Shown: positions 1 to 37,920, counted from the stretch's first letter. The stretch: 37,920 nucleotides of DNA from Acidobacteriota bacterium (GCA_021818005.1 JAKAFI010000003.1:1-37920), one strand, 5' to 3'. Notes: a model not told the origin generated them from the sequence alone. Numbers and translations are program-made.

Positions 1-709
1 GGGGTCGCGCGGTGGCCGCTAGCGTCAGCGGAACCACGCTGATCGGTCGCATCCGCGACCTCGGCGGCTATCGCGATCCGTTCATCACGGACGCGATGTT
101 GCTCGGCTGGATCAACGACTCCCTCGCGCAGCTCTGGGAGATCATCGTCAAGTATGACCCCGGCCGGGTAATGACCGCGGCGAACGTCTCGGTGGTCTCA
201 GGGACCGCCGCCTACAACCTCGCCTCGGACTTCTACCGGGTCAAGGGCGTGGCGGTGGCCGACACCGCATCGCCCGACGGGTGGACGGTGCTCGAGCGCT
301 ACATGTGGCCCGAGCGCCACGGCTACTCCGCCAACTCGGAGAAGCTCTCGGCGCGCTGGGACGTGCAGCAGGGGCAGCTCTGGATCTGGCCGAAGCCGAC
401 GTGGGCCGCGTCGGTGCGCGTGGAGTACTTCCCGACGGCCCCGCAACTCGCCACCGCGGCGGGGACCTTCGACTCGATCAACTACTGGACCGAGTGGGTG
501 GTCTTCGACGTGCTGGTGAAGTGCGCTCTCAAGTCCGACGACGACGCGAAGGGCTGGGCGATCGAGCGTGACCGGCGCGAGGCCCTGATCCGCGGGTCCA
601 CCCCGCAGGTCAACGGCGGCGGCCCCAAGACGATGGTCTCGATCTACGACCGGAGCGGAAGCCGGCGTCGGAGGCTGCGCTGGTGAGGCCGCCGATCTCC
701 AGTCGCGAT
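1..709. repeat. Left copy of a 709-bp terminal direct repeat (partner 37212..37920), non-identical in the middle
   Basis: Positions 1-92 and 603-709 match 37212-37303 and 37814-37920 exactly; internal substitutions between. Repeat ends coincide with contig ends. Confidence 0.95.
12..686 (+). CDS. Head-tail connector / tail tubular protein A (T7 gp11-like adaptor), allele A
   Basis: 224 aa; position between the capsid module and the tail nozzle; overall character of podovirus adaptor proteins; GTG start. Confidence 0.6.
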   Translation: MAASVSGTTLIGRIRDLGGYRDPFITDAMLLGWINDSLAQLWEIIVKYDPGRVMTAANVSVVSGTAAYNLASDFYRVKGVAVADTASPDGWTVLERYMWPERHGYSANSEKLSARWDVQQGQLWIWPKPTWAASVRVEYFPTAPQLATAAGTFDSINYWTEWVVFDVLVKCALKSDDDAKGWAIERDRREALIRGSTPQVNGGGPKTMVSIYDRSGSRRRRLRW

Positions 710-1834
710 CCTGCCCTCCTCGAGTCGAACCGGCTCGCGAGGGCAGAGGAGCGCCACCTCGGCGAGGGCGCCCCCAGGCGCAGCCTCGGGGCGCCCCTGC
801 CGAACCTGGAGACGAAGAGCAGGACCGCGGCCTATGGCGATCTGATCTGGGCCGACCCCGCCGCGGGCGCGCTTACCTTCCGGCTTCCGAAGGGCGACCG
901 CGCCCACATCGGAGAGAAGGTCACGGTCAAGAACTACTCCGACTCGACGACGGAGATCACGATCGTCGCGCAGACCCCGGACACGATCGACAAGTCTCCA
1001 ACGAAGGTGATGGCAACCGCTTGGATGCAGGCGACGTGCATCCTCGTCGCCGCGGACAAGTGGATCTGCGCGGCTCAGAACGGCTGCGCTGATTGCTCCT
1101 CGACCTGCTCTGGCACCTGCTCCGGGTCATGCTCTGGCTCCTGCGGTGGGGGATGCGCCGGCGGCTGCCTCGGGACTTGCTCCACCACCTGCGTCGGCGG
1201 CTGCTCCGGTGGCCTCTCCTGCGGCTGCGGAGGGAACTGCTCGGGGGCCTGCTCGACGGGTTGTGGTGGAGCGTGTCTCGGGACGTGCTCCGGGTCGTGC
1301 GCTGGGTCCTGCACCGGGTCGTGCCAGGGGACCTCTCGCGACGGGTGCGTCGCCTGCGCGGCCGACTGCACCGGCACCTGCTCTGGCACCTGCTCTGGCA
1401 CCTGTACGGGATCTTGCACGACCGCTTGCGGCGGGACTTGCACCGGCGGCTGCATCGGAACCTGCACGACCGCCTGCGGCGGGACCTGCACGGGCACCTG
1501 CACCGGATCGTGCTCTACGACTTGCACGGGCGGCTGCTCTACGACTTGCACGGGCACCTGCACCGGATCGTGCGGCGGGACCTGCGTCGGCGGCTGCGGA
1601 ACCGCCTGCACCTCGAGCTGCACGGGAACCTGCACCGGAGGCTGCGAGGCCGACTGCAAGGACAACTGCCGCTACACCTGCACCGCGACATGCGCTAGCG
1701 ACTGCACGACCGCCTGCGTCGAGAGCTGCGGTGCATCCTGCTCCGGGTCCTGCACCTCGAGCTGCACGGGAACCTGCACCGGGGGTTGTGTGGCCGGGTG
1801 CTCCGGAGACTGCTCCGGGGGGGCCGTAGCATGA
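683..1834 (+). CDS. Virion-associated CXXX-repeat protein: N-terminal beta-rich domain plus about 62-Cys C-X3-C array; putative radical SAM substrate
   Basis: GTG start overlapping the upstream TGA (GTGA). N-terminal segment ...GALTFRLPKGDRAHIGEKVTVKNYSDSTTEITIVAQTPDTID...ILVAADKWIC resembles phage virion/fibre domains; C-terminal C-(GSTA-rich)3 repeats. Followed directly by a radical SAM gene. Confidence 0.9.
   Translation: MRPPISSRDPALLESNRLARAEERHLGEGAPRRSLGAPLPNLETKSRTAAYGDLIWADPAAGALTFRLPKGDRAHIGEKVTVKNYSDSTTEITIVAQTPDTIDKSPTKVMATAWMQATCILVAADKWICAAQNGCADCSSTCSGTCSGSCSGSCGGGCAGGCLGTCSTTCVGGCSGGLSCGCGGNCSGACSTGCGGACLGTCSGSCAGSCTGSCQGTSRDGCVACAADCTGTCSGTCSGTCTGSCTTACGGTCTGGCIGTCTTACGGTCTGTCTGSCSTTCTGGCSTTCTGTCTGSCGGTCVGGCGTACTSSCTGTCTGGCEADCKDNCRYTCTATCASDCTTACVESCGASCSGSCTSSCTGTCTGGCVAGCSGDCSGGAVA
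1093..1822 (+). repeat. 12-bp-periodic coding tandem repeat (TGC NNN NNN NNN)
   Basis: Cys codon, almost always TGC, recurs every 12 nt. Includes exact longer duplications, e.g. ctgcacctcgagctgcacgggaacctgcaccgg at 1606 and 1750 (144 nt apart). Confidence 0.95.
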
Positions 1835-2919
1835 AACGCTCGCTGACCTTCATCGTCACCGACGAGTGCAACCTCCGCTGCTCCTACTGCTACGTGCGGA
1901 AGGGCTCGGAGCGGCTCTCGCTCGACGTGGCCGCGAAGGCGCTCTTCCTGTTTCTGAACGAGCCCCGATTCCGTGACGGGGCCGACGGCTGCACCTTCGA
2001 TTTCATCGGCGGAGAGCCGCTCCTCGAGGCCGATCTGATCGGGGAGATCCTGGACTGTGCGCACGGGATGCTGCGCGGGCACCCCTGGGAGAAGAACCAC
2101 GCCGCAGGGCTGACCACGAACGGGCTGCTCTACAACACGCTCCCGGTGCAGCGGCTTCTGGTGACGAATCGGTGCCTCGGGGTCTCGATCACGGTCGACG
2201 GGCCGGCAGACGTGCACGACGCCGCGCGCCGCTTCCCGGACGGGAGCGGGTCGCACGCCCAGGTCGAGGAGAACGCCAGGCTCTGGTTGCACCAGTTCCC
2301 GGGGCCGCTCACCTCCACCAAGTTCACGCTCTCGCGGAACACGCTCGGGCAGCTCGCCCGCTCGGTGGTCTACCTGCTTTGCGAGCTCCGGGTCCCAACC
2401 GTGAACGCGAACCCGGTGTTCGAGGGTCCGTGGTCAGACGAAGACGCCGCCCTCTACGAGGCGCAGCTCCTCGAGCTCGGGCGCGAGCTCCTGGCACGCG
2501 GCATCCCGCTTGACCGCTGCAACCTCTTCGGTCGACACGTCGGGCTCCCGCACCCGCGTCTCGACGATCAGAGTTGGTGTGGGGCTGGTAAGTGGATGCT
2601 CGCGGTGGACCCCTCCGGGAACCTCTACCCCTGCAACCGCTTCGCGCCCTCCGGCCTCTCGCATCAGCCTCCGATGCCCTGCGGTCACGTCGACGTGGGC
2701 CTCGACTTCGCCGTGCTCGACGCCTTCGCCGCGCTCAAGCGGTCGGAGCAGTCACCGCCCGAGTGCCTCTCCTGCGAGGTCTCCGGGGGCTGCGCCTGGT
2801 GCAAGGGGCACGACTACGACGAGAGCGGATCGATCGCGAAGCGCTCCACGAGCCTCTGTCTGATGCACAAGGCGCGGGCTCGCGCAAACCGAACGCTCTG
2901 GGCCGAGGCTGACGCATGA
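1831..2919 (+). CDS. Radical SAM / SPASM-domain peptide maturase
   Basis: CNLRCSYC (CX3CX2C) near the N-terminus; GGEPLL motif; C-terminal CGAGKWMLAVDPSGNLYPC (CX12GX4C) and CLSCEVSGGCAWC...TSLC, matching SPASM auxiliary-cluster spacing. ATGA overlap with the upstream CXXX gene. Confidence 0.92.
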   Translation: MKRSLTFIVTDECNLRCSYCYVRKGSERLSLDVAAKALFLFLNEPRFRDGADGCTFDFIGGEPLLEADLIGEILDCAHGMLRGHPWEKNHAAGLTTNGLLYNTLPVQRLLVTNRCLGVSITVDGPADVHDAARRFPDGSGSHAQVEENARLWLHQFPGPLTSTKFTLSRNTLGQLARSVVYLLCELRVPTVNANPVFEGPWSDEDAALYEAQLLELGRELLARGIPLDRCNLFGRHVGLPHPRLDDQSWCGAGKWMLAVDPSGNLYPCNRFAPSGLSHQPPMPCGHVDVGLDFAVLDAFAALKRSEQSPPECLSCEVSGGCAWCKGHDYDESGSIAKRSTSLCLMHKARARANRTLWAEADA

Positions 2920-5900
2920 CGCGCGCCGTCCTCCCGATCCCGCTCGGCGCCATGGGCCTCAACGCAGGCCCAGAGCCGCGACTTGTGCAGGATGGTCTCC
3001 TCCGGCTCGAGAACGGTCGGTGGGACCGGCGCGGCGCGATCTCGAAGCGGCCCGGGATGGACACCGTTTCGACGGAGGCGAACCACCCGCACCTCGCGAC
3101 GTGGCAGGACAAGCCCGTTCTCCTCGGGAGCACGCTCAAGGTTCGCAACGCGACCACCTCGGCATGGGACGACTGCGGCTCGCTCGGCCTGATGGATCTG
3201 TCGGTCGACTGGCGCGCGGTGGTCCCCGAGGAGCCGTCGGGCGTGGAGGTCGCCGCGCAGGGCGACGTGCTGCTCCTCGTCTTCACGTGGTACGAGGACT
3301 CCGCCATCCTCGCGAACGCCTACCAGTACGCCCGAGCTGTGACCTATTCGAAATCGAGCGGGAAGCGCCTGGCGGTGCTGGATCTCGGCCTCACACACTC
3401 GGCGATCGCCGCGCCGCCACCGTGGCCGGCGCGCGCCATCAACATCAACGGCTCGCTCTACTGCCTGAAGCTCGAGGGGAACTCGCTCAAGCTCGCCACC
3501 GTCTCGGCGGTCGACGGATCGATCGGGTCCTGGTCCACCGCGCACAGCTTCGCGGTCGCCCCCGAGACCGCCGCCGGTGCGCGCTGGGACTGCTGCGTCG
3601 ACGGGTCCACGCTCGTCGTCGCCTTCGCGGACGCCGCGGGCGACGTGCGGCTCGGGTTCCTCGCGGGCAGCATGACCGAGGCTGTCCACGCCGCCACCAC
3701 GGCGCGCGCCGTCGGGTGCTTCCAGCTTCGCTCCGGCGTCGCCGGCATCCTGTTCTATGACGCCGGGACCGCGCCCGACACCGTCAAGTGCGTCGGGTAC
3801 AACACCGCGACCGGAGCCGTCGCGGTTACCGAGATCACGCTCGACACGGCGGTGTTCGCCGTCAAGCACCTCGCCGGCGTCGCGACCTCGAGCACGGTCG
3901 CTGCGTGCTACTGGACAGACGCGACGGCTGCCTCGATCCCGACGGTGAGCGGACACGACTACCGGATCCGAAAAAGCACCTTCACCGACGCGAGCGGGAC
4001 CGGGGTTGCTGGCACTGTGTCCACTCTGAAGGACGGATGCCTGATCGCCGCGCGGCCCTGGCTCGACGGCACCGAGCACTACCTTCCGGTAGCGACGGAT
4101 GTCGGCTCAGGTCTCACGAAGCCTGGCGGTGTGGTGCTGAACTCGAGCGGGGTCCCCGTTGCTGTGTGCCTGGTCGGATCTCAGCACGCCGGGGAGAGCT
4201 ACCATCCTGGGGCGCCCGTCGCGACCACCGGAAGCGCCTATTTCGCGCTCCCGAGCTACGGCCGGTGGTTTGGCGGGCACGACTCGGCCGGCTGGCTCAA
4301 GGGCGCTGCTCCGTCGGATCCTGCGGCGGGCTTCGGCGTCGCGATCGTCACGCTCACCACGACTGACCTGGCGAAGTGCAAGCCAATCGACACGGGACAC
4401 AGCCTCGTGATCCCCGGCGCGCTCCCGCGCGAGTTCGAGGGCTCCGCGATTCGCGAGCTCGGGTTCTTCCAGTACCCGCACAAGTGCTCTGTCGCTGCCG
4501 GCGCCGGAGCGGGCCTCGGGATCGGGACCTACGGCTACGTCTGGGCCTACGAGGCGTTCGACGACCGCGGGCGTCGCGCCGTCTCCTCCTGCTCTCCGGT
4601 CGCCTCGGCCGTGACCACCAGCGGGAATCAGGTGGTCACGATCCAGCCTCCGCCTCCGCTGACGCTGACCCTGCGGCAGGCCGGCGAGTGGCGCGCCGTG
4701 CTCTATCGAACCCTCGTCGGCGGAAGCGTCTACCATCGCCGCGCCGTGCTCGAGGGAGCGAACGCCGCCTCGTGGGTGGCGATGGCCGATGGCCTGGCCG
4801 ACGCCGATCTGGAGACCGAGGAGCAGCTCTACGTAGGAGACCCGGCGTCGATCTCGATTCTCGAGCATGTCCAGGTGCCGCCGTTCCGCGTCGCCGCGAT
4901 GCACGACGGTCGGCTATGCGTGGTGCCGATCGAGGACGACCGCGTGATCTGGTACAGCAAGCCGCTCTTGCAGTCGCAGGCGATCCACTTCTGCGGCGAG
5001 ACGCACTCGCACAGGCCAGTGGCGGCGACCTCCGAGATCACCGCACTCGATTCTTTCTTCGGCCGGATCTGCGCGTGGACCACATCGCGCCTGATCATGA
5101 TCGAGGGCGCCCCGCTCGACAACACCGGCGGCGGCGCCGGGCTCGGCTCCTACCTGCTCCATGACGGCGTCGGGTGCTCCGATCACCGCACCGTCGTGCA
5201 GACGCCCGCGGGCGTGCTGTGGAACTCGAACGCCGGGATCCGGCTGCTCACCCGCGAGCTGCAGCTCGTCGACATCGGCGAGCGCGTGAAGTACCACACC
5301 GAGAACCTGACGGTGGTGCGCGCGGTCGCGCAGCCCGACGACGCCTCGGCGATCTTCCTGACCTCCGGCTCCGCGCTCGAGCTCAACACAGAGCAAGCGA
5401 TCTGGTCGACCAGGACAAACCACGAGGCGAGCGACGGCTGCGTCGCCGGAGGGCTCCTCTGGGTCCGCAACCCGTCGACGGGCGTGGTCAGGAAGCAGGT
5501 AGCGAACCGGCTCGACGGCGGCTCGGCGTTCTCGCTCCTACTCGCGAGCGGGCACCTCTCCCCGGCGAACCTCGGCGGGAAGTTCAGGATCAAGCGCCTG
5601 CTGATCTTCGCCTACCACCTGAGCACGCACACGCTCCACTGCGCGTTCCAGTACGACGGTGACCCGACGTGGATGGACGATCAGGACATGGTCGCCTCGA
5701 CACTCGGCTCCTACTTCTCCTCGGCGGCGCTCCTCGGCTCCGGGCTCGCGTCCACCTACCGGGACAAGGCCTATGTACTCGAGGCGATCCCGTCGCAGGA
5801 CAAGTGCTCCTCGATCGCCTTCCGGATCTACGACGCGAGCGCCACCGGCACCGACGGCGGGATCGAGATCGTGGCCGCTGCGCTCGAGGTCGACGTGAAG

Positions 5901-5942
5901 GAAGGCGCCCTACGCTCCGACACCGTGCGGAGGTTCACATGA
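2916..5942 (+). CDS. Large tail protein, probable tail nozzle / tail tubular protein B (T7 gp12-like)
   Basis: 1008 aa beta-rich; position after the adaptor; ATGA overlap with the radical SAM gene. Confidence 0.6.
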   Translation: MTRAVLPIPLGAMGLNAGPEPRLVQDGLLRLENGRWDRRGAISKRPGMDTVSTEANHPHLATWQDKPVLLGSTLKVRNATTSAWDDCGSLGLMDLSVDWRAVVPEEPSGVEVAAQGDVLLLVFTWYEDSAILANAYQYARAVTYSKSSGKRLAVLDLGLTHSAIAAPPPWPARAININGSLYCLKLEGNSLKLATVSAVDGSIGSWSTAHSFAVAPETAAGARWDCCVDGSTLVVAFADAAGDVRLGFLAGSMTEAVHAATTARAVGCFQLRSGVAGILFYDAGTAPDTVKCVGYNTATGAVAVTEITLDTAVFAVKHLAGVATSSTVAACYWTDATAASIPTVSGHDYRIRKSTFTDASGTGVAGTVSTLKDGCLIAARPWLDGTEHYLPVATDVGSGLTKPGGVVLNSSGVPVAVCLVGSQHAGESYHPGAPVATTGSAYFALPSYGRWFGGHDSAGWLKGAAPSDPAAGFGVAIVTLTTTDLAKCKPIDTGHSLVIPGALPREFEGSAIRELGFFQYPHKCSVAAGAGAGLGIGTYGYVWAYEAFDDRGRRAVSSCSPVASAVTTSGNQVVTIQPPPPLTLTLRQAGEWRAVLYRTLVGGSVYHRRAVLEGANAASWVAMADGLADADLETEEQLYVGDPASISILEHVQVPPFRVAAMHDGRLCVVPIEDDRVIWYSKPLLQSQAIHFCGETHSHRPVAATSEITALDSFFGRICAWTTSRLIMIEGAPLDNTGGGAGLGSYLLHDGVGCSDHRTVVQTPAGVLWNSNAGIRLLTRELQLVDIGERVKYHTENLTVVRAVAQPDDASAIFLTSGSALELNTEQAIWSTRTNHEASDGCVAGGLLWVRNPSTGVVRKQVANRLDGGSAFSLLLASGHLSPANLGGKFRIKRLLIFAYHLSTHTLHCAFQYDGDPTWMDDQDMVASTLGSYFSSAALLGSGLASTYRDKAYVLEAIPSQDKCSSIAFRIYDASATGTDGGIEIVAAALEVDVKEGALRSDTVRRFT

Positions 5943-30485: not shown

Positions 30486-30829
30486 TGGCCGCAACCGAGA
30501 AGATCGTTCGCGTGCAGCTCTCCGAGCAGCTCGTCGGCGTGTTCCGCGGCGAGGTCACGCCGAAGAGCATTGAGCCGGGGAAGCGTGGCTTCACCGTTGA
30601 GGAGCACGATCGCTACCTGCAGATCAGCCGCCGCGATCCGCGCCGGCCGAATGTCGAGGTCGTGGCCTGCATCGGCTACGGCCCTGGCGTCGTGATCGTG
30701 AAGGAGCGCACCTACGCCGCAACCGAGTCCACCCCGCAACGAGTGAGCACCGATGGATCCGCGAGCAGCGCTGAGCCTGCTGGCCGCCGAGCTCGCCCGG
30801 CGGGCCGCACAACGGGGAGCGACGAGTGA
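30482..30829 (+). CDS. Hypothetical head-module protein
   Basis: 115 aa MMAATEKIVRVQLSEQLVGVFRGEVTPKSIEPGKRGF; overlaps the TerL start. Confidence 0.45.
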   Translation: MMAATEKIVRVQLSEQLVGVFRGEVTPKSIEPGKRGFTVEEHDRYLQISRRDPRRPNVEVVACIGYGPGVVIVKERTYAATESTPQRVSTDGSASSAEPAGRRARPAGRTTGSDE

Positions 30830-32267
30830 ATTTCACCCCGGCCAGGCTCGCGTCCGAGCGCTCCGTGATGATCGCGGCGCTCTGCCTCGTCGTGTCGGTC
30901 TGCTCACCCACCGCCGCTGGGGCAAGACCCACTACCTCGTCACCGACGAGGCCGACGTGTGCCTCTCGCGCGAGCGCGCCCGCTGCTGTTACATCGCCCA
31001 GCAGAAGACGAACGCAAAGCGCCTCTTCCTCGAGGCGATGCTGCCTCTCGCGGAGAAGTACGGCTGGGACTACGACTGGCACGCCGTCGATCTCGTCTGG
31101 ACCTTCCGCGAGACGGGGAGCTACGTCCAGGTCTGCGGGATGGACGACCCCCGGACCATCCGCCTCCTCCGCGGGTTCAAGTGGGATCGAGCTCACATCG
31201 ACGAGGCGCAGGACTTCATCTATGGCGACCTGCAGAATCTCACGATGCGCGTGCTCGGCCCCGGCGTTGCTGAACGTCGCGGCCAGATCGTCATGGCGGG
31301 GACTCCGGGCGACGCCGAGAACTTCTTCTGGGAGGTCGTGGCAGCTCGCCGTCACCACGACTGGCTCGTCGAGCATGGCAAGTTCCTCGAGAACCCTCAC
31401 ACCAGGGGCGCTCTCCTCGAGGAGATCGAAGGGCTCATTCGCGCCAACCCCGGCGTCATCCACGAGCCATGGTTTCAGCGCGAGTATCTCGGTCGCTGGA
31501 TCGCCGACTCCCGCCTTGCAGAGGTCGAGGTTGACCTCGAGCGCAACGGGCTCCGCGAGTGGACGCGCGAAGGCGACGATCGCTTCGATCTCGGGATCGA
31601 CTGGGGATGGACCGCTGCGCCTGCCGTCGCAAGCAGCGCGGAGCGGAAGTACAGCGCGGCCTACGTGCTCGGCACCTGGAATCCGCGCCGCTATCCATGG
31701 TTCGTCTACCTCCAGGCGCGACTCCTCGAACCGATGTTCATTCACGAGCACGTCGCCTTGCTCCGCGAGATGCTCGCGCGATGGCCTGGCCTCCGCATCT
31801 TCGGTGACCCAGCCGCCGAGGCCGGGCCGCTCCACGACGACCTGCGGAACATCTTCGGGATCCCAATCGAGGACGCCGAGAAGCGGGACAAGCGCTATCA
31901 CATCGAGCGCCTCAACTCCGAGAGCTCCCAGGGGCACCTCAAGCTCTTCCATCTCGACGAGGCCGACGGAGAGCCCGCGGTCGGTCGCGTGCTTCACTCG
32001 CCGCACCCTGAGCACCATCCGCTCTTCCGGCAGTGGCGATCGCTGGTGTGGGGCAAGGGGCCCGGAGGAAAGCGCGTCGAGGGATCGCCGCGCCACCTCC
32101 ACGACGGAGCGCTCTACGCTCGCCGCGGAGCCTATCTCTACGCCTATCGCGAGCCTCAGCCTCCCGAGACGCCCGAGCAGCGCGACGCGAAGATCAGCGC
32201 CCACATGCGAGAGACGCGGCTCCTTCACATGCGGAAGAACCAACGCCGCGCGCACCACGGGAGGTGA
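30753..32267 (+). CDS. terL: Terminase large subunit
   Basis: GLLTHRRWGKTH (Walker A-like), DRAHIDEAQDF (Walker B), FDLGIDWGWTAAP (RNase H-like nuclease Asp). Confidence 0.85.
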   Translation: MDPRAALSLLAAELARRAAQRGATSEFHPGQARVRALRDDRGALPRRVGLLTHRRWGKTHYLVTDEADVCLSRERARCCYIAQQKTNAKRLFLEAMLPLAEKYGWDYDWHAVDLVWTFRETGSYVQVCGMDDPRTIRLLRGFKWDRAHIDEAQDFIYGDLQNLTMRVLGPGVAERRGQIVMAGTPGDAENFFWEVVAARRHHDWLVEHGKFLENPHTRGALLEEIEGLIRANPGVIHEPWFQREYLGRWIADSRLAEVEVDLERNGLREWTREGDDRFDLGIDWGWTAAPAVASSAERKYSAAYVLGTWNPRRYPWFVYLQARLLEPMFIHEHVALLREMLARWPGLRIFGDPAAEAGPLHDDLRNIFGIPIEDAEKRDKRYHIERLNSESSQGHLKLFHLDEADGEPAVGRVLHSPHPEHHPLFRQWRSLVWGKGPGGKRVEGSPRHLHDGALYARRGAYLYAYREPQPPETPEQRDAKISAHMRETRLLHMRKNQRRAHHGR

Positions 32268-32270
32268 CGC

Positions 32271-34154
32271 GTGAGCGACTGGTCTTCCTTCTGGTGGGGC
32301 TGCATGCACGCCGACGACGCCGGGCGAAAGCTCTGGGCGACGTTCGAGACGATCCGCAGTCAGCACCTTGCCAGACTCGAGCGGCTCAAGCGCCTGACCG
32401 ACGCCTACCGGAATGTGGAGCCGGTCAACGGCTTCGACCCGTTCCTCTGGAAGCTCCGCGGCATCTTCGGCGCGCCGGTGACCTTCAACGTGGTTCGATC
32501 CGCGATCAACACCGCCGTCGCGCGCCTCTCGCTCCGCGACCCCATGGCGATGTGGGGGACGAGCGCGGGCGATCAGAAGCAGAAGCAGATCGCGCAGGCG
32601 CGGACGAAGCTCGCGGCCGGCGTGATCCAGCGCGAGCGCGCGTTCTCGCGCTCGTTCATCAAGGCCCTCAAGGACTGCGCGATCGGAGACTTCGGTTGCG
32701 TGCGCCCGAAGGCCGACGGCGAGCAAATCCGGGTCAAGCGCGTCCACCCCTCGCGCATCTTCTGGGACGAGACCGCAGCCCTCGACGACGATCCACCCTC
32801 GCTCTATGAGCTCTCCTGGCCGACGCCGGAGGAGCTCGCCGCGATGTTCACGCGCCGAGCCGACGACATCATGCGCGAGGCCAAGCGGCTCTCGGTCGCC
32901 GGTATCGACGGGGTGGCGGCGCGGCAGGTCGTGGAGTGCGTCGAGGCTTTCCACCCCGCGCGCGGAAACGCCCCCGGGCGGCGAGCCATCGCGATCGAAG
33001 GCGTGGGCGTTCTCGTCCAGGACTGGGACGGACCCTGGCCGCACAAGTTCGTGCGCTGGGATGGCGGGGACGTGCTCGGGTTCTCCTCGGTCTCCGCCGG
33101 GGACGAGCTGCTCCCGCTCCAGGAGGAGCTCGACTTCATCCTCGAGAGGATCGCCGAGAACGCCGAGGCGCACAGCGGCGCGAAGATCTGGAAGCCGAAG
33201 GGCTGCGAGGTCAACACGGACGATCTCGCCCGCAACGACCCGAACGCTGTCCACGAGTACGTTGGGGACAGGCCGCCAACGCTCCAGCTCTGGGACATCA
33301 TGTCCCCGCAGTATTTCCAGTGGGCCGAGACGGTCTACCGCCGCGCGTTCGAGATCGTGGGCGTCAGCGAGTTCTCCGCTACCTCGAAGATGCCGGGCCC
33401 GCGGATGGAGTCGGGCGAGGCCATCCGCGCCTACCAGGAGCCTGAGAGCGTCCGCTTCGCGCCGCTCGAGCGCGCCTACACCGAGCTCGTGGTCGACGTG
33501 AGCGAGGAGATCACTCGCGAGGCCCGCCGGCTCGCGCGGACCCACAAGGGGTGGGCGGTGAGCTACCTCGAGCGCGACCGCACGTTGACGCAGGTCAAGT
33601 GGTCCGACGCCGAGGGCAGCGACAACGGTTTCACCGTTTTCCCGCAGGCCCAGAGCGGCCTCCCGATGCAGCCGGCGGCGCGGCTCTCCAAGCTCCACGA
33701 GCTCGCCCGCGATCAGGTCGTGGACCGCGCGACCTTCATCGCCTACGCCGGCCCGCTCATGGGCGCCGACATGGAGGATTGGTGGCAGCTCGCGAACGCC
33801 CCCGTGGCCGCGATCCGGAAGCTGCTCGACTCCATGCTCGCAGCCGGTGACTACCTCGAGGAGTGCCGGCCGTTCGAGGCGATGCCGGGGCTCGAGCTCG
33901 GCGTCCAGATCGCCATGGCCTACCTCGCGCGAGGCGTCGCCGAGGGCCGCCCGAAGGCCGAGGCCGATCTCCTGGTCACATGGATCACCGACGCAGCCGC
34001 GCTGATCAAGGCTCGCACGATGCCGGCGCCGCAGGCCGGGGCTCCCGTGGTCCCGTCCGCGCCGACGCAGGTCGCCGCTCCACCGCCGTCCCTGGGCCCG
34101 GGGGTTGCCGGGCCGCCGACGATGCCGGGCCCAGGCCCGATGCCGAACGCGTGA
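32271..34154 (+). CDS. Portal protein
   Basis: 627 aa directly after TerL; DPFLWKLRGIFGAPVTFNVVRSAINTAVARLS...; position and size. Confidence 0.75.
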   Translation: MSDWSSFWWGCMHADDAGRKLWATFETIRSQHLARLERLKRLTDAYRNVEPVNGFDPFLWKLRGIFGAPVTFNVVRSAINTAVARLSLRDPMAMWGTSAGDQKQKQIAQARTKLAAGVIQRERAFSRSFIKALKDCAIGDFGCVRPKADGEQIRVKRVHPSRIFWDETAALDDDPPSLYELSWPTPEELAAMFTRRADDIMREAKRLSVAGIDGVAARQVVECVEAFHPARGNAPGRRAIAIEGVGVLVQDWDGPWPHKFVRWDGGDVLGFSSVSAGDELLPLQEELDFILERIAENAEAHSGAKIWKPKGCEVNTDDLARNDPNAVHEYVGDRPPTLQLWDIMSPQYFQWAETVYRRAFEIVGVSEFSATSKMPGPRMESGEAIRAYQEPESVRFAPLERAYTELVVDVSEEITREARRLARTHKGWAVSYLERDRTLTQVKWSDAEGSDNGFTVFPQAQSGLPMQPAARLSKLHELARDQVVDRATFIAYAGPLMGADMEDWWQLANAPVAAIRKLLDSMLAAGDYLEECRPFEAMPGLELGVQIAMAYLARGVAEGRPKAEADLLVTWITDAAALIKARTMPAPQAGAPVVPSAPTQVAAPPPSLGPGVAGPPTMPGPGPMPNA

Positions 34155-35253: not shown

Positions 35254-36468
35254 ATGTCCGCCATCACCGCCGCCGATATCGCGGCCGCACTCAAGCCGAT
35301 GTACGGCAGCCAGGGGCAGAAGTCCCTGGTGTTCGACAAGAAGGCCCGCCCGTTCCTCTCGATGCTCAAGACCGTCGAGGAGTTCGAGGGGCAGTACTAC
35401 CCGCTGCCGGTGCTGTACGAGGACACCCTCGGCGGCTCGAACACCTTCACGACCGCGCAGACGAACGTGGGCGCGCCCGGGATGGAGGTGTTCCAGGTCG
35501 ACCCGACCTCGAACTACTACCGGATCGTCCAGATCTCGACGCAGGCGCTTCGGCGCGCGAAGAGCTCGCTCGGCAGCTTCATCACGCAGACGAAGCTCAA
35601 GTACGACTCGGCGCTCAACGGTCTCGCGAACGACATCGAGACCTCGCTCTTCCGGAGCTCCGACGGGCACCTCGCCACGATCAGCGGCGCGCCGGCCGCG
35701 GGCGTGGTCACGCTCTCGAACGCGGGCGACGCGAAGCTCTTCGCGATCGGCGAGAAGCTCGTGTGCGCCAACTCGATCACCGCCGCGCTCCACACCGGAG
35801 AGGTCGGGACCGTCACCGCCACCGACCCGGTCGCCGGCACGATCACGGTCAGCGGCACGATCACCAACTGGGGCGACACCGACGTGATCTTCCGCCAGGG
35901 CGATTACGTCAGCGCCTCCGACACGCTGCACCTCCACGGGCTCGCCGACTGGATCCCGACCTCGCTCGAGAGCGGGACCTTTATGGGCGTCACCCGCACC
36001 GGGAAGCGCGAGAAGCTCGCCGGGATGTACTTCTCGGACGGCTCGCTCACGGACATCGAGTACTCGATGTTCACGGCGCTCTGCCAGATGGGCGACAGGT
36101 CGGCCGCCCCGGTCGACAAGATCCTGACCGACTACACGCTGTGGGGCCTGCTCGCGAAGGAGCTCGGGATCGAGGTCACGCGCGACCCGCGCGACGGCGA
36201 CGCCGGCATGACCCGGATCGGCATCGCGCACCCGAACGGCGTCGCGGAGGTCGTGCCCTGCACCAAGTGCCAGCCCAACACGGCGTGGCCGCTCACCAGC
36301 GAGGACTGGGTCCTCGTGTCGCTCGGCCCCGCCGCCGGCATCTTCGACGACGACGGCCAGCTCGCGCAGCGGATCAGCAACGCGGACGGGATCGAGACCC
36401 GCGCCGTCGGGTTCCCCGAGCTCGGCTGCTCGGCCCCGGTGCGCTCGGGCCGGATCGCGTTCAGCTAG
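35254..36468 (+). CDS. Major capsid protein
   Basis: 404 aa after scaffold; MSAITAADIAAALKPMYGSQGQKSLVFDKKARPFLSML...GLANDIETSLFRSSDG. Confidence 0.75.
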   Translation: MSAITAADIAAALKPMYGSQGQKSLVFDKKARPFLSMLKTVEEFEGQYYPLPVLYEDTLGGSNTFTTAQTNVGAPGMEVFQVDPTSNYYRIVQISTQALRRAKSSLGSFITQTKLKYDSALNGLANDIETSLFRSSDGHLATISGAPAAGVVTLSNAGDAKLFAIGEKLVCANSITAALHTGEVGTVTATDPVAGTITVSGTITNWGDTDVIFRQGDYVSASDTLHLHGLADWIPTSLESGTFMGVTRTGKREKLAGMYFSDGSLTDIEYSMFTALCQMGDRSAAPVDKILTDYTLWGLLAKELGIEVTRDPRDGDAGMTRIGIAHPNGVAEVVPCTKCQPNTAWPLTSEDWVLVSLGPAAGIFDDDGQLAQRISNADGIETRAVGFPELGCSAPVRSGRIAFS

Positions 36469-37011: not shown

Positions 37012-37233
37012 GTGGACGCGAAGACCCCGACCGGCGACGACTTCGCCGCGAGCATCGCGAAGAAGGCGCTTCAGAAGCCCGACGAGAACCCCGACGAGAC
37101 CGCGGCCGCGCTCGGGCGCGAGCTCCTTGGCGTGCTCGACAAGAAGGATCCGGCCGCGCTCGGGCGGCTCTTCGCGTCGCAGGTCAAGATCGCCGTGGCC
37201 GAGGCCATGAAGGGGTCGCGCGGTGGCCGCTAG
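37012..37233 (+). CDS. Small structural-module protein
   Basis: 73 aa, GTG start; overlaps the adaptor start. Confidence 0.45.
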   Translation: MDAKTPTGDDFAASIAKKALQKPDENPDETAAALGRELLGVLDKKDPAALGRLFASQVKIAVAEAMKGSRGGR

Positions 37234-37920
37234 CGTCAGCGGAACCACGCTGATCGGTCGCATCCGCGACCTCGGCGGCTATCGCGATCCGTTCATCACG
37301 GACACGATGCTGCTCGGCTGGGTCAACGACTCCCTCGCGCAGCTCTGGGAGATCGTGATCAAGCACGATCCTGGCCGGGTGCTCTCCGCGGCGAACGTCT
37401 CGGTGGTCTCCGGGACCGCCGCCTACAACCTCGCCTCCGACTTCTATCGCATCAAGGGTGTCGCCGTCGCCGACGACGCCTCGCCGGACGGATGGACGAC
37501 GCTCGAGCGCTACATGTGGCCCGAGCGCCACGGCGGGGCCTTCGGGGCCGACAAGCTATCGGCGCGCTGGGACGTGCAGCAGGGTCAGCTCTGGATCTGG
37601 CCCAAACCGGAGTGGTCTGCCTCGGTGCGCGTGGAGTACTTCCCGACGGCGCCGCAGCTCGCGACCGCGGCGGGGACCTTCGACTCGATCAACTACTGGA
37701 CCGAGTGGGTGGTCTTCGACGTGCTCGTGAAGTGTGCTCTCAAGGCCGAGGACGACGCGAAGGGCTGGGCGATCGAGCGCGATCGGCGGGAAGCGCTGAT
37801 CCGCGGCTCCACGCCGCAGGTCAACGGCGGCGGCCCCAAGACGATGGTCTCGATCTACGACCGGAGCGGAAGCCGGCGTCGGAGGCTGCGCTGGTGAGGC
37901 CGCCGATCTCCAGTCGCGAT
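37212..37920. repeat. Right copy of the 709-bp terminal direct repeat
   Basis: See left copy; sequence runs through the end of the adaptor gene into the start of the CXXX gene, then the contig stops. Confidence 0.95.
37223..37897 (+). CDS. Head-tail connector / gp11-like adaptor, allele B
   Basis: About 20 of 224 residues differ from 12..686 by manual count. Confidence 0.6.
   Translation: MAASVSGTTLIGRIRDLGGYRDPFITDTMLLGWVNDSLAQLWEIVIKHDPGRVLSAANVSVVSGTAAYNLASDFYRIKGVAVADDASPDGWTTLERYMWPERHGGAFGADKLSARWDVQQGQLWIWPKPEWSASVRVEYFPTAPQLATAAGTFDSINYWTEWVVFDVLVKCALKAEDDAKGWAIERDRREALIRGSTPQVNGGGPKTMVSIYDRSGSRRRRLRW

Follow-up and report, generated by a model that had tools for sequence, protein, structure and literature searches.

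A phage contig encodes a cysteine-array protein, probably of the tail, next to a radical SAM/SPASM maturase

Radical SAM RiPP chemistry is known for making small secreted peptides. The closest described system to the one analyzed here is the CXXX-repeat system catalogued in NCBIfam, found mostly in Bacteroidota, which comprises a target (TIGR04114/TIGR04117), a radical SAM maturase (TIGR04115), an accessory protein (TIGR04116), and a second maturase (TIGR04119). We found no account of the biochemistry of this family in the open literature searched. Two further systems are related through their enzymes. The PapB/PapA ranthipeptide (freyrasin-type) system acts on repeated C-X3-D units that become S-Cbeta thioethers, and CteB, the maturase of the short six-Cys SCIFF peptide CteA, is a thioether-forming radical SAM/SPASM enzyme of known structure (PDB 5wgg/5why). 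In phages, PHROG 1802 (radical SAM) and PHROG 6085 already contain relatives of both proteins studied here as "other" or unknown function, but no function or pairing is recorded there, and SPN3US-type jumbo phages (SPN3US, CR5, and phiEaH2) carry radical SAM genes beside short CXXX open reading frames (ORFs).

An array gene and a maturase gene on a phage contig

The stretch of DNA analyzed (the window) is a contig of 37,920 nucleotides from a 3.19-Mb, 390-contig bin of an Acidobacteriota bacterium. A first-pass annotation had proposed that it contains a phage-encoded, RiPP-like pair, consisting of a 383-residue protein with about 62 Cys in a CX3C array and an ATGA-coupled radical SAM/SPASM protein. 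We confirmed this observation, including its coordinates and reading frames, except that the array protein has 63 Cys. The features of the window are listed in Table 1.

Table 1. Features of the window, with coordinates counted from its first nucleotide
Coordinates	Strand	Feature	Supporting evidence
1..709 and 37212..37920		Contig ends, 91% identical over 709 bases; both hold the adaptor gene, and the right end runs 27 nt into the CXXX gene	Comparison of the two ends
12..686	+	Head-tail adaptor (SU10-type) gene; stop overlaps the start of the CXXX gene by 4 nt (GTGA)	Pfam SU10_adaptor, E 6e-14
683..1834	+	CXXX-array protein (GTG start), 383 aa; proposed maturase substrate and virion (tail) protein	TIGR04114, 27.2 bits in two stretches (curated cut-off 20); TIGR04117; PHROG 6085, E 3e-14
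683..1084	+	N-terminal domain (aa 1-134) without export signal	PHROG 37034, E 1e-4 over aa 62-124
1085..1813	+	Cys array proper (Cys135 to Cys377), unit C-[TS]-G-[TSG]	Translation and unit analysis
1831..2919	+	Radical SAM/SPASM maturase, 362 aa; start overlaps the CXXX stop (ATGA)	TIGR04115, full-length alignment; AlphaFold2 pLDDT 91.8
1867..1890	+	CX3CX2C motif binding the radical SAM [4Fe-4S] cluster (C13, C17, C20)	Invariant in 21 relatives
2578..2859	+	SPASM cysteines C250, C268, C312, C315, C321, C324, C343	Invariant in 21 relatives
2916..5942	+	1008-aa protein of unknown function, coupled to the maturase by ATGA; probably same transcription unit	No PHROG or Pfam hit
30753..32267		Terminase large subunit	
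32271..34154		Portal	
35254..36468		Major capsid protein	

The contig carries terminase, portal, capsid, and adaptor genes, with replication genes (a DnaC-like loader and a polymerase exonuclease) on the other strand, and looks complete. The similarity of its two ends is as expected of a circular or permuted phage genome with some strain variation, and reflects either a circular genome closed on a strain variant or a duplicated adaptor. To test a chromosomal origin, we searched the relatives of the host bin for the maturase. No relative was found at E 1e-20 in the other 119 genomes of the set, and the bin itself has one copy, on this contig; a chromosomal origin was therefore rejected. The first-pass annotation had placed the pair inside the tail-gene module of a lytic-type phage. 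As the CXXX gene directly follows the head-tail adaptor gene, the former description is fair but inferred, while the latter was examined only to the extent that no integrase was found among the ORFs scanned. The adaptor, CXXX, maturase, and 1008-aa protein genes each overlap the next by exactly four bases and thus look like one translationally coupled unit.

To exclude the possibility that the array is a chance or repeat artifact, we compared it with shuffled sequences and examined its codons. The protein has 55 exact CX3C steps and 2 CX2C steps, whereas 20,000 shuffles of the array region gave a mean of 14.6 CX3C steps and a maximum of 26. The 55 twelve-base units comprise 45 different DNA words and 31 different peptides, with an invariant TG and freely varying third codon positions, which is what selection for Cys spacing gives and not a fresh tandem duplication. 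The X residues are mostly G/S/T/A, with Gly at X2 in 35 of 55 units. Although another plus-strand frame is also open across much of the array, the Cys frame is supported by the 4-nt junctions on both sides, by the TIGR04114 and PHROG 6085 hits, and by an in-frame homologue of the N-terminal domain followed by a Cys array in another phage contig, L142. The first 138 residues are 49% identical to the N-domain of the L142 protein, and the gene just before the latter carries the same domain without a Cys array. The N-terminus, MRPPISSRDPALLESNRLARAEERH, has no export signal. In our judgment, this domain has the sequence style of phage tail beta-domains, but its structure could not be predicted confidently (pLDDT 43), so that no fold search was run on it, and a profile search of the PDB with it found nothing.

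We next asked to which family the enzyme belongs. TIGR04115 was the best model by a wide margin (E 1e-94), but its 318 bits fall 32 bits below the curated cut-off of 350; the second-best model, PapB, scored 143 bits (E 1e-41) against a cut-off of 340, and cyclophane-forming and sulfatase-maturase models matched far more weakly. A phage relative, L141, passes the TIGR04115 cut-off with 473 bits. As the first-pass annotation had described, the enzyme has a CX3CX2C motif and a CX12GX4C ... CX2CX5CX2C ... C pattern, and all ten of these Cys are invariant in 21 relatives. CteB was the closest solved structure both by profile (E 3e-46) and by a Foldseek search (E 1e-19). However, the enzyme aligns only from CteB residue 98 on, and has no counterpart of the N-terminal extension of CteB, which is the RRE.

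Recurrence of the pair in viral and cellular genomes

To determine whether the pairing recurs, we scanned IMG/VR with a profile of the maturase and found 276 stretches encoding relatives (tblastn E 1e-3 or better), of which the best 80 were taken with flanks; the same scan of the GTDB genome collection gave 80 cellular loci. After dereplication at 80% identity, 48 of 52 viral and 14 of 17 near cellular loci had a CX3C array on the same strand within 10 kb, against 1 of 43 distant radical SAM relatives (Fisher p 3e-22). Several contigs are truncated, and the viral figure is thus a lower bound. Other routes gave little: tblastn of the CXXX protein against phages found nothing, probably because low-complexity filtering removes the array, and single-protein scans of IMG/VR with the maturase and with the portal also found nothing. 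A scan for a bare CX3C DNA pattern mostly hit long, 12-nt-periodic repeats in many IMG/VR contigs that do not look like genes but mimic arrays in translation, and will give false positives in such scans; the true cases were kept by frame, composition, and domain context.

In a quick tree, the enzyme of the window grouped with that of L142 (SH-aLRT 99), and viral enzymes formed several groups with cellular ones among them, needing at least five label changes on starred branches. In L142, the gene order is terminase, portal, scaffold-like, capsid, adaptor-like, maturase, TIGR04116 accessory, N-domain protein, and CXXX protein, which matches the layout of the window around the adaptor.

Comparison of neighborhoods revealed two types of system. 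Near cellular loci, mostly from Bacteroidota, typically have a short CXXX peptide with a Tat signal, TIGR04115, TIGR04119, and TIGR04116, and one fully read example also has TatA- and TatC-like genes. A Tat-type motif was present in 22 of 38 near cellular loci and in 1 of 80 viral loci, and TIGR04119 in 26 of 38 and 1 of 80, respectively, while TIGR04116 was present in 66 of 80 viral loci. Relative to the NCBIfam system, the pair in the window has a maturase of the same lineage (about 40 to 45% identity), the same C-[ST]-G-[STG] units, and the same adjacency, but a larger array fused to a phage-type domain, a location in a phage structural operon, and no Tat signal. Neither TIGR04119 nor TIGR04116 was detected in the window, no ORF of 25 aa or more matching the latter better than E 1.6, and it is therefore the leanest form, consisting of array protein plus maturase. 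A GenBank "Bacteriophage sp." record, L021 (MT837480), is evidently a piece of a Bacteroidota-like bacterial chromosome with a Tat-signal CXXX peptide, TIGR04115, TIGR04119, TIGR04116, and TatA/TatC-like genes.

Viral arrays are fused to domains typical of phage tails and adhesins. These include GDSL lipase (viral locus L117, with PHROG tail-fiber hits), F5/8C (L181, PHROG tail), RCC1-like (L192, PHROG tail), glycine-rich ALK/LTK-type (L217), and a weak carbohydrate-binding domain (L158). One domain of about 105 residues stands before the array in 36 proteins and after it in 8, and such order swapping fits an array that works as a spacer or shaft. The phage CXXX protein at L143 (7306-9600) has 160 Cys and 146 CX3C steps, with long internal duplications of the array. 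Proteins laid out like the viral forms, of 500 to 670 aa with N-terminal domains and up to 122 Cys, also occur in Margulisiibacteriota from termite gut (L248-L252), and may be prophage or cell-surface proteins. At L166 (10001-11083), the maturase frame has a single TAG directly after the CX3CX2C motif, possibly indicating a phage that reads TAG as an amino acid, and at L144 (11882-12934) a PhuZ-like phage tubulin lies just downstream of a CXXX/maturase pair.

Proposed role of the pair and alternatives

The interpretation offered by the first-pass annotation, that a dedicated maturase may produce a heavily stapled rod, spike, or adhesin on the particle, was partly supported. Two outcomes had been named in advance as counting against it, a lack of co-occurrence of the genes in related phages and assignment of the maturase to a free-standing radical SAM family with a different substrate, and neither was observed; a third, the absence of a mass change on co-expression, was not examined. 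The enzyme and substrate families were already represented in NCBIfam and PHROGs, the system is not unique to this phage, and most viral relatives carry the small third protein TIGR04116. What we found undescribed is the setting: our literature searches on the family names, on SPN3US with radical SAM, and on phage RiPPs found no description of the family in virions or as an array fused to tail domains, although prior mention in subscription journals is not excluded.

We consider, with moderate confidence, that the pair is a phage-encoded form of the CXXX-repeat/radical SAM RiPP-like system in which the substrate is a structural protein of the particle, probably of the tail or an adhesin, instead of a small exported peptide. 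In this view, the enzyme would use 5'-deoxyadenosyl radical chemistry, with its radical SAM cluster and SPASM auxiliary clusters, to abstract a hydrogen from a residue of each unit and join a backbone or side-chain carbon of a small residue to a Cys sulfur, working along the array before or during virion assembly. The resulting chain of small thioether rings would form a stiff, reduction-resistant rod or linker separating a virion-anchoring domain from a distal or receptor-facing domain. Our analysis demonstrates the gene pair, its family, the 4-nt coupling, the phage context, the recurrence, and the fusion to tail-type domains in relatives, whereas modification of the array by the enzyme, thioether chemistry, presence in the virion, and the rod function are inferences; no mass, structure, or virion proteome bears on the product, and neither cross-links nor purified particles were analyzed here. 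The TIGR04115 score below the cut-off, the lack of a TIGR04116 hit in the window, and the lack of a confident fold for the N-terminal domain also count against this view. The unit signature is shared by the window, other phages, Bacteroidota, and jumbo phages, which argues for one chemistry, with Gly at X2 (36 to 64%) and Ser/Thr at X1 and X3 as candidate acceptors. The assignment of thioethers is by analogy with CteB and PapB; the units here have the same spacing as those of the PapB substrate, but the fourth position is the next Cys and not Asp.

The recurrence of the pairing in many unrelated phages suggests that viruses use natural-product chemistry to harden or shape parts of their particles. 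The broader reading, that diverse tailed phages from small podovirus-like genomes to jumbo myophages build covalently stapled Cys-array rods or linkers in their tail fibers or adhesins, a protein cross-linking chemistry not known in virus particles, is in our view about as likely as not. The enzyme and target families are known at the level of profile models, but here they are tied to large multidomain proteins of viruses across several separate phage lineages, with a substantial chance that this is a new class of viral protein modification. If the product is stapled and in the virion, it would represent a new way of covalently hardening viral particles and a reservoir of cross-linking enzymes acting on arrays of up to 160 cysteines.

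Two alternatives are unlikely, to a similar degree. First, the array may be modified as proposed but not be part of the particle, being instead a phage-carried RiPP (bacteriocin-like or a host-acting peptide) made during infection or by the lysogen. In line with this, the bacterial relatives are mostly small Tat-exported peptides, RiPP maturases usually make secreted products, and no virion mass spectrometry exists for a CXXX protein; however, the near-absence of signals and of TIGR04119 at viral loci, the fusions to tail-type domains, and the location in structural gene runs speak against it. Second, the enzyme may do something other than form simple thioethers, such as C-C or C-O cross-links, epimerization, or chained S-C bonds between neighboring cysteines, with the remaining thiols forming disulfides. 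SPASM enzymes cover several chemistries, and no acceptor residue is invariant in the units, but the best structural and profile relatives, CteB and PapB, are thioether formers, and the only invariant unit residue is Cys. A third possibility, that the array is an unmodified disulfide- or metal-binding (metallothionein-like) protein unrelated to the neighboring enzyme, is very unlikely even though Cys-rich proteins bind metals and the cytoplasm keeps thiols reduced until release, because arrays co-occur sharply with this maturase lineage and not with its distant relatives, the genes are coupled by 4 nt, and arrays carry very little His or acidic residue that could add ligands.

Arrays in jumbo phages

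SPN3US, CR5, and phiEaH2 carry several short CXXX proteins followed by two radical SAM genes, next to tail-fiber/baseplate genes. The larger radical SAM protein is a more distant TIGR04115/PapB relative (113 and 118 bits, respectively) and is found at full length in 61 phage records; if the product is stapled and in the virion, this would be an explanation for the "hypothetical radical SAM" genes long seen in jumbo phages. In SPN3US, the arrays lie next to gp167, annotated as a virion structural protein, and gps 168-170, which were assigned by mass spectrometry to the tail and likened to peripheral baseplate or fiber proteins (PMC10052503; gp168 also in PMC5105663). The 2023 study (PMC10052503) searched a database of 273 annotated proteins with fixed Cys carbamidomethylation, which would probably miss a stapled, unannotated array. 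The CXXX ORFs of these well-studied phages (SPN3US, L397 3085-4120; CR5, L139 6142-7178; phiEaH2, L140 6099-6898) are mostly missing from GenBank/RefSeq or called there in the wrong frame or strand.
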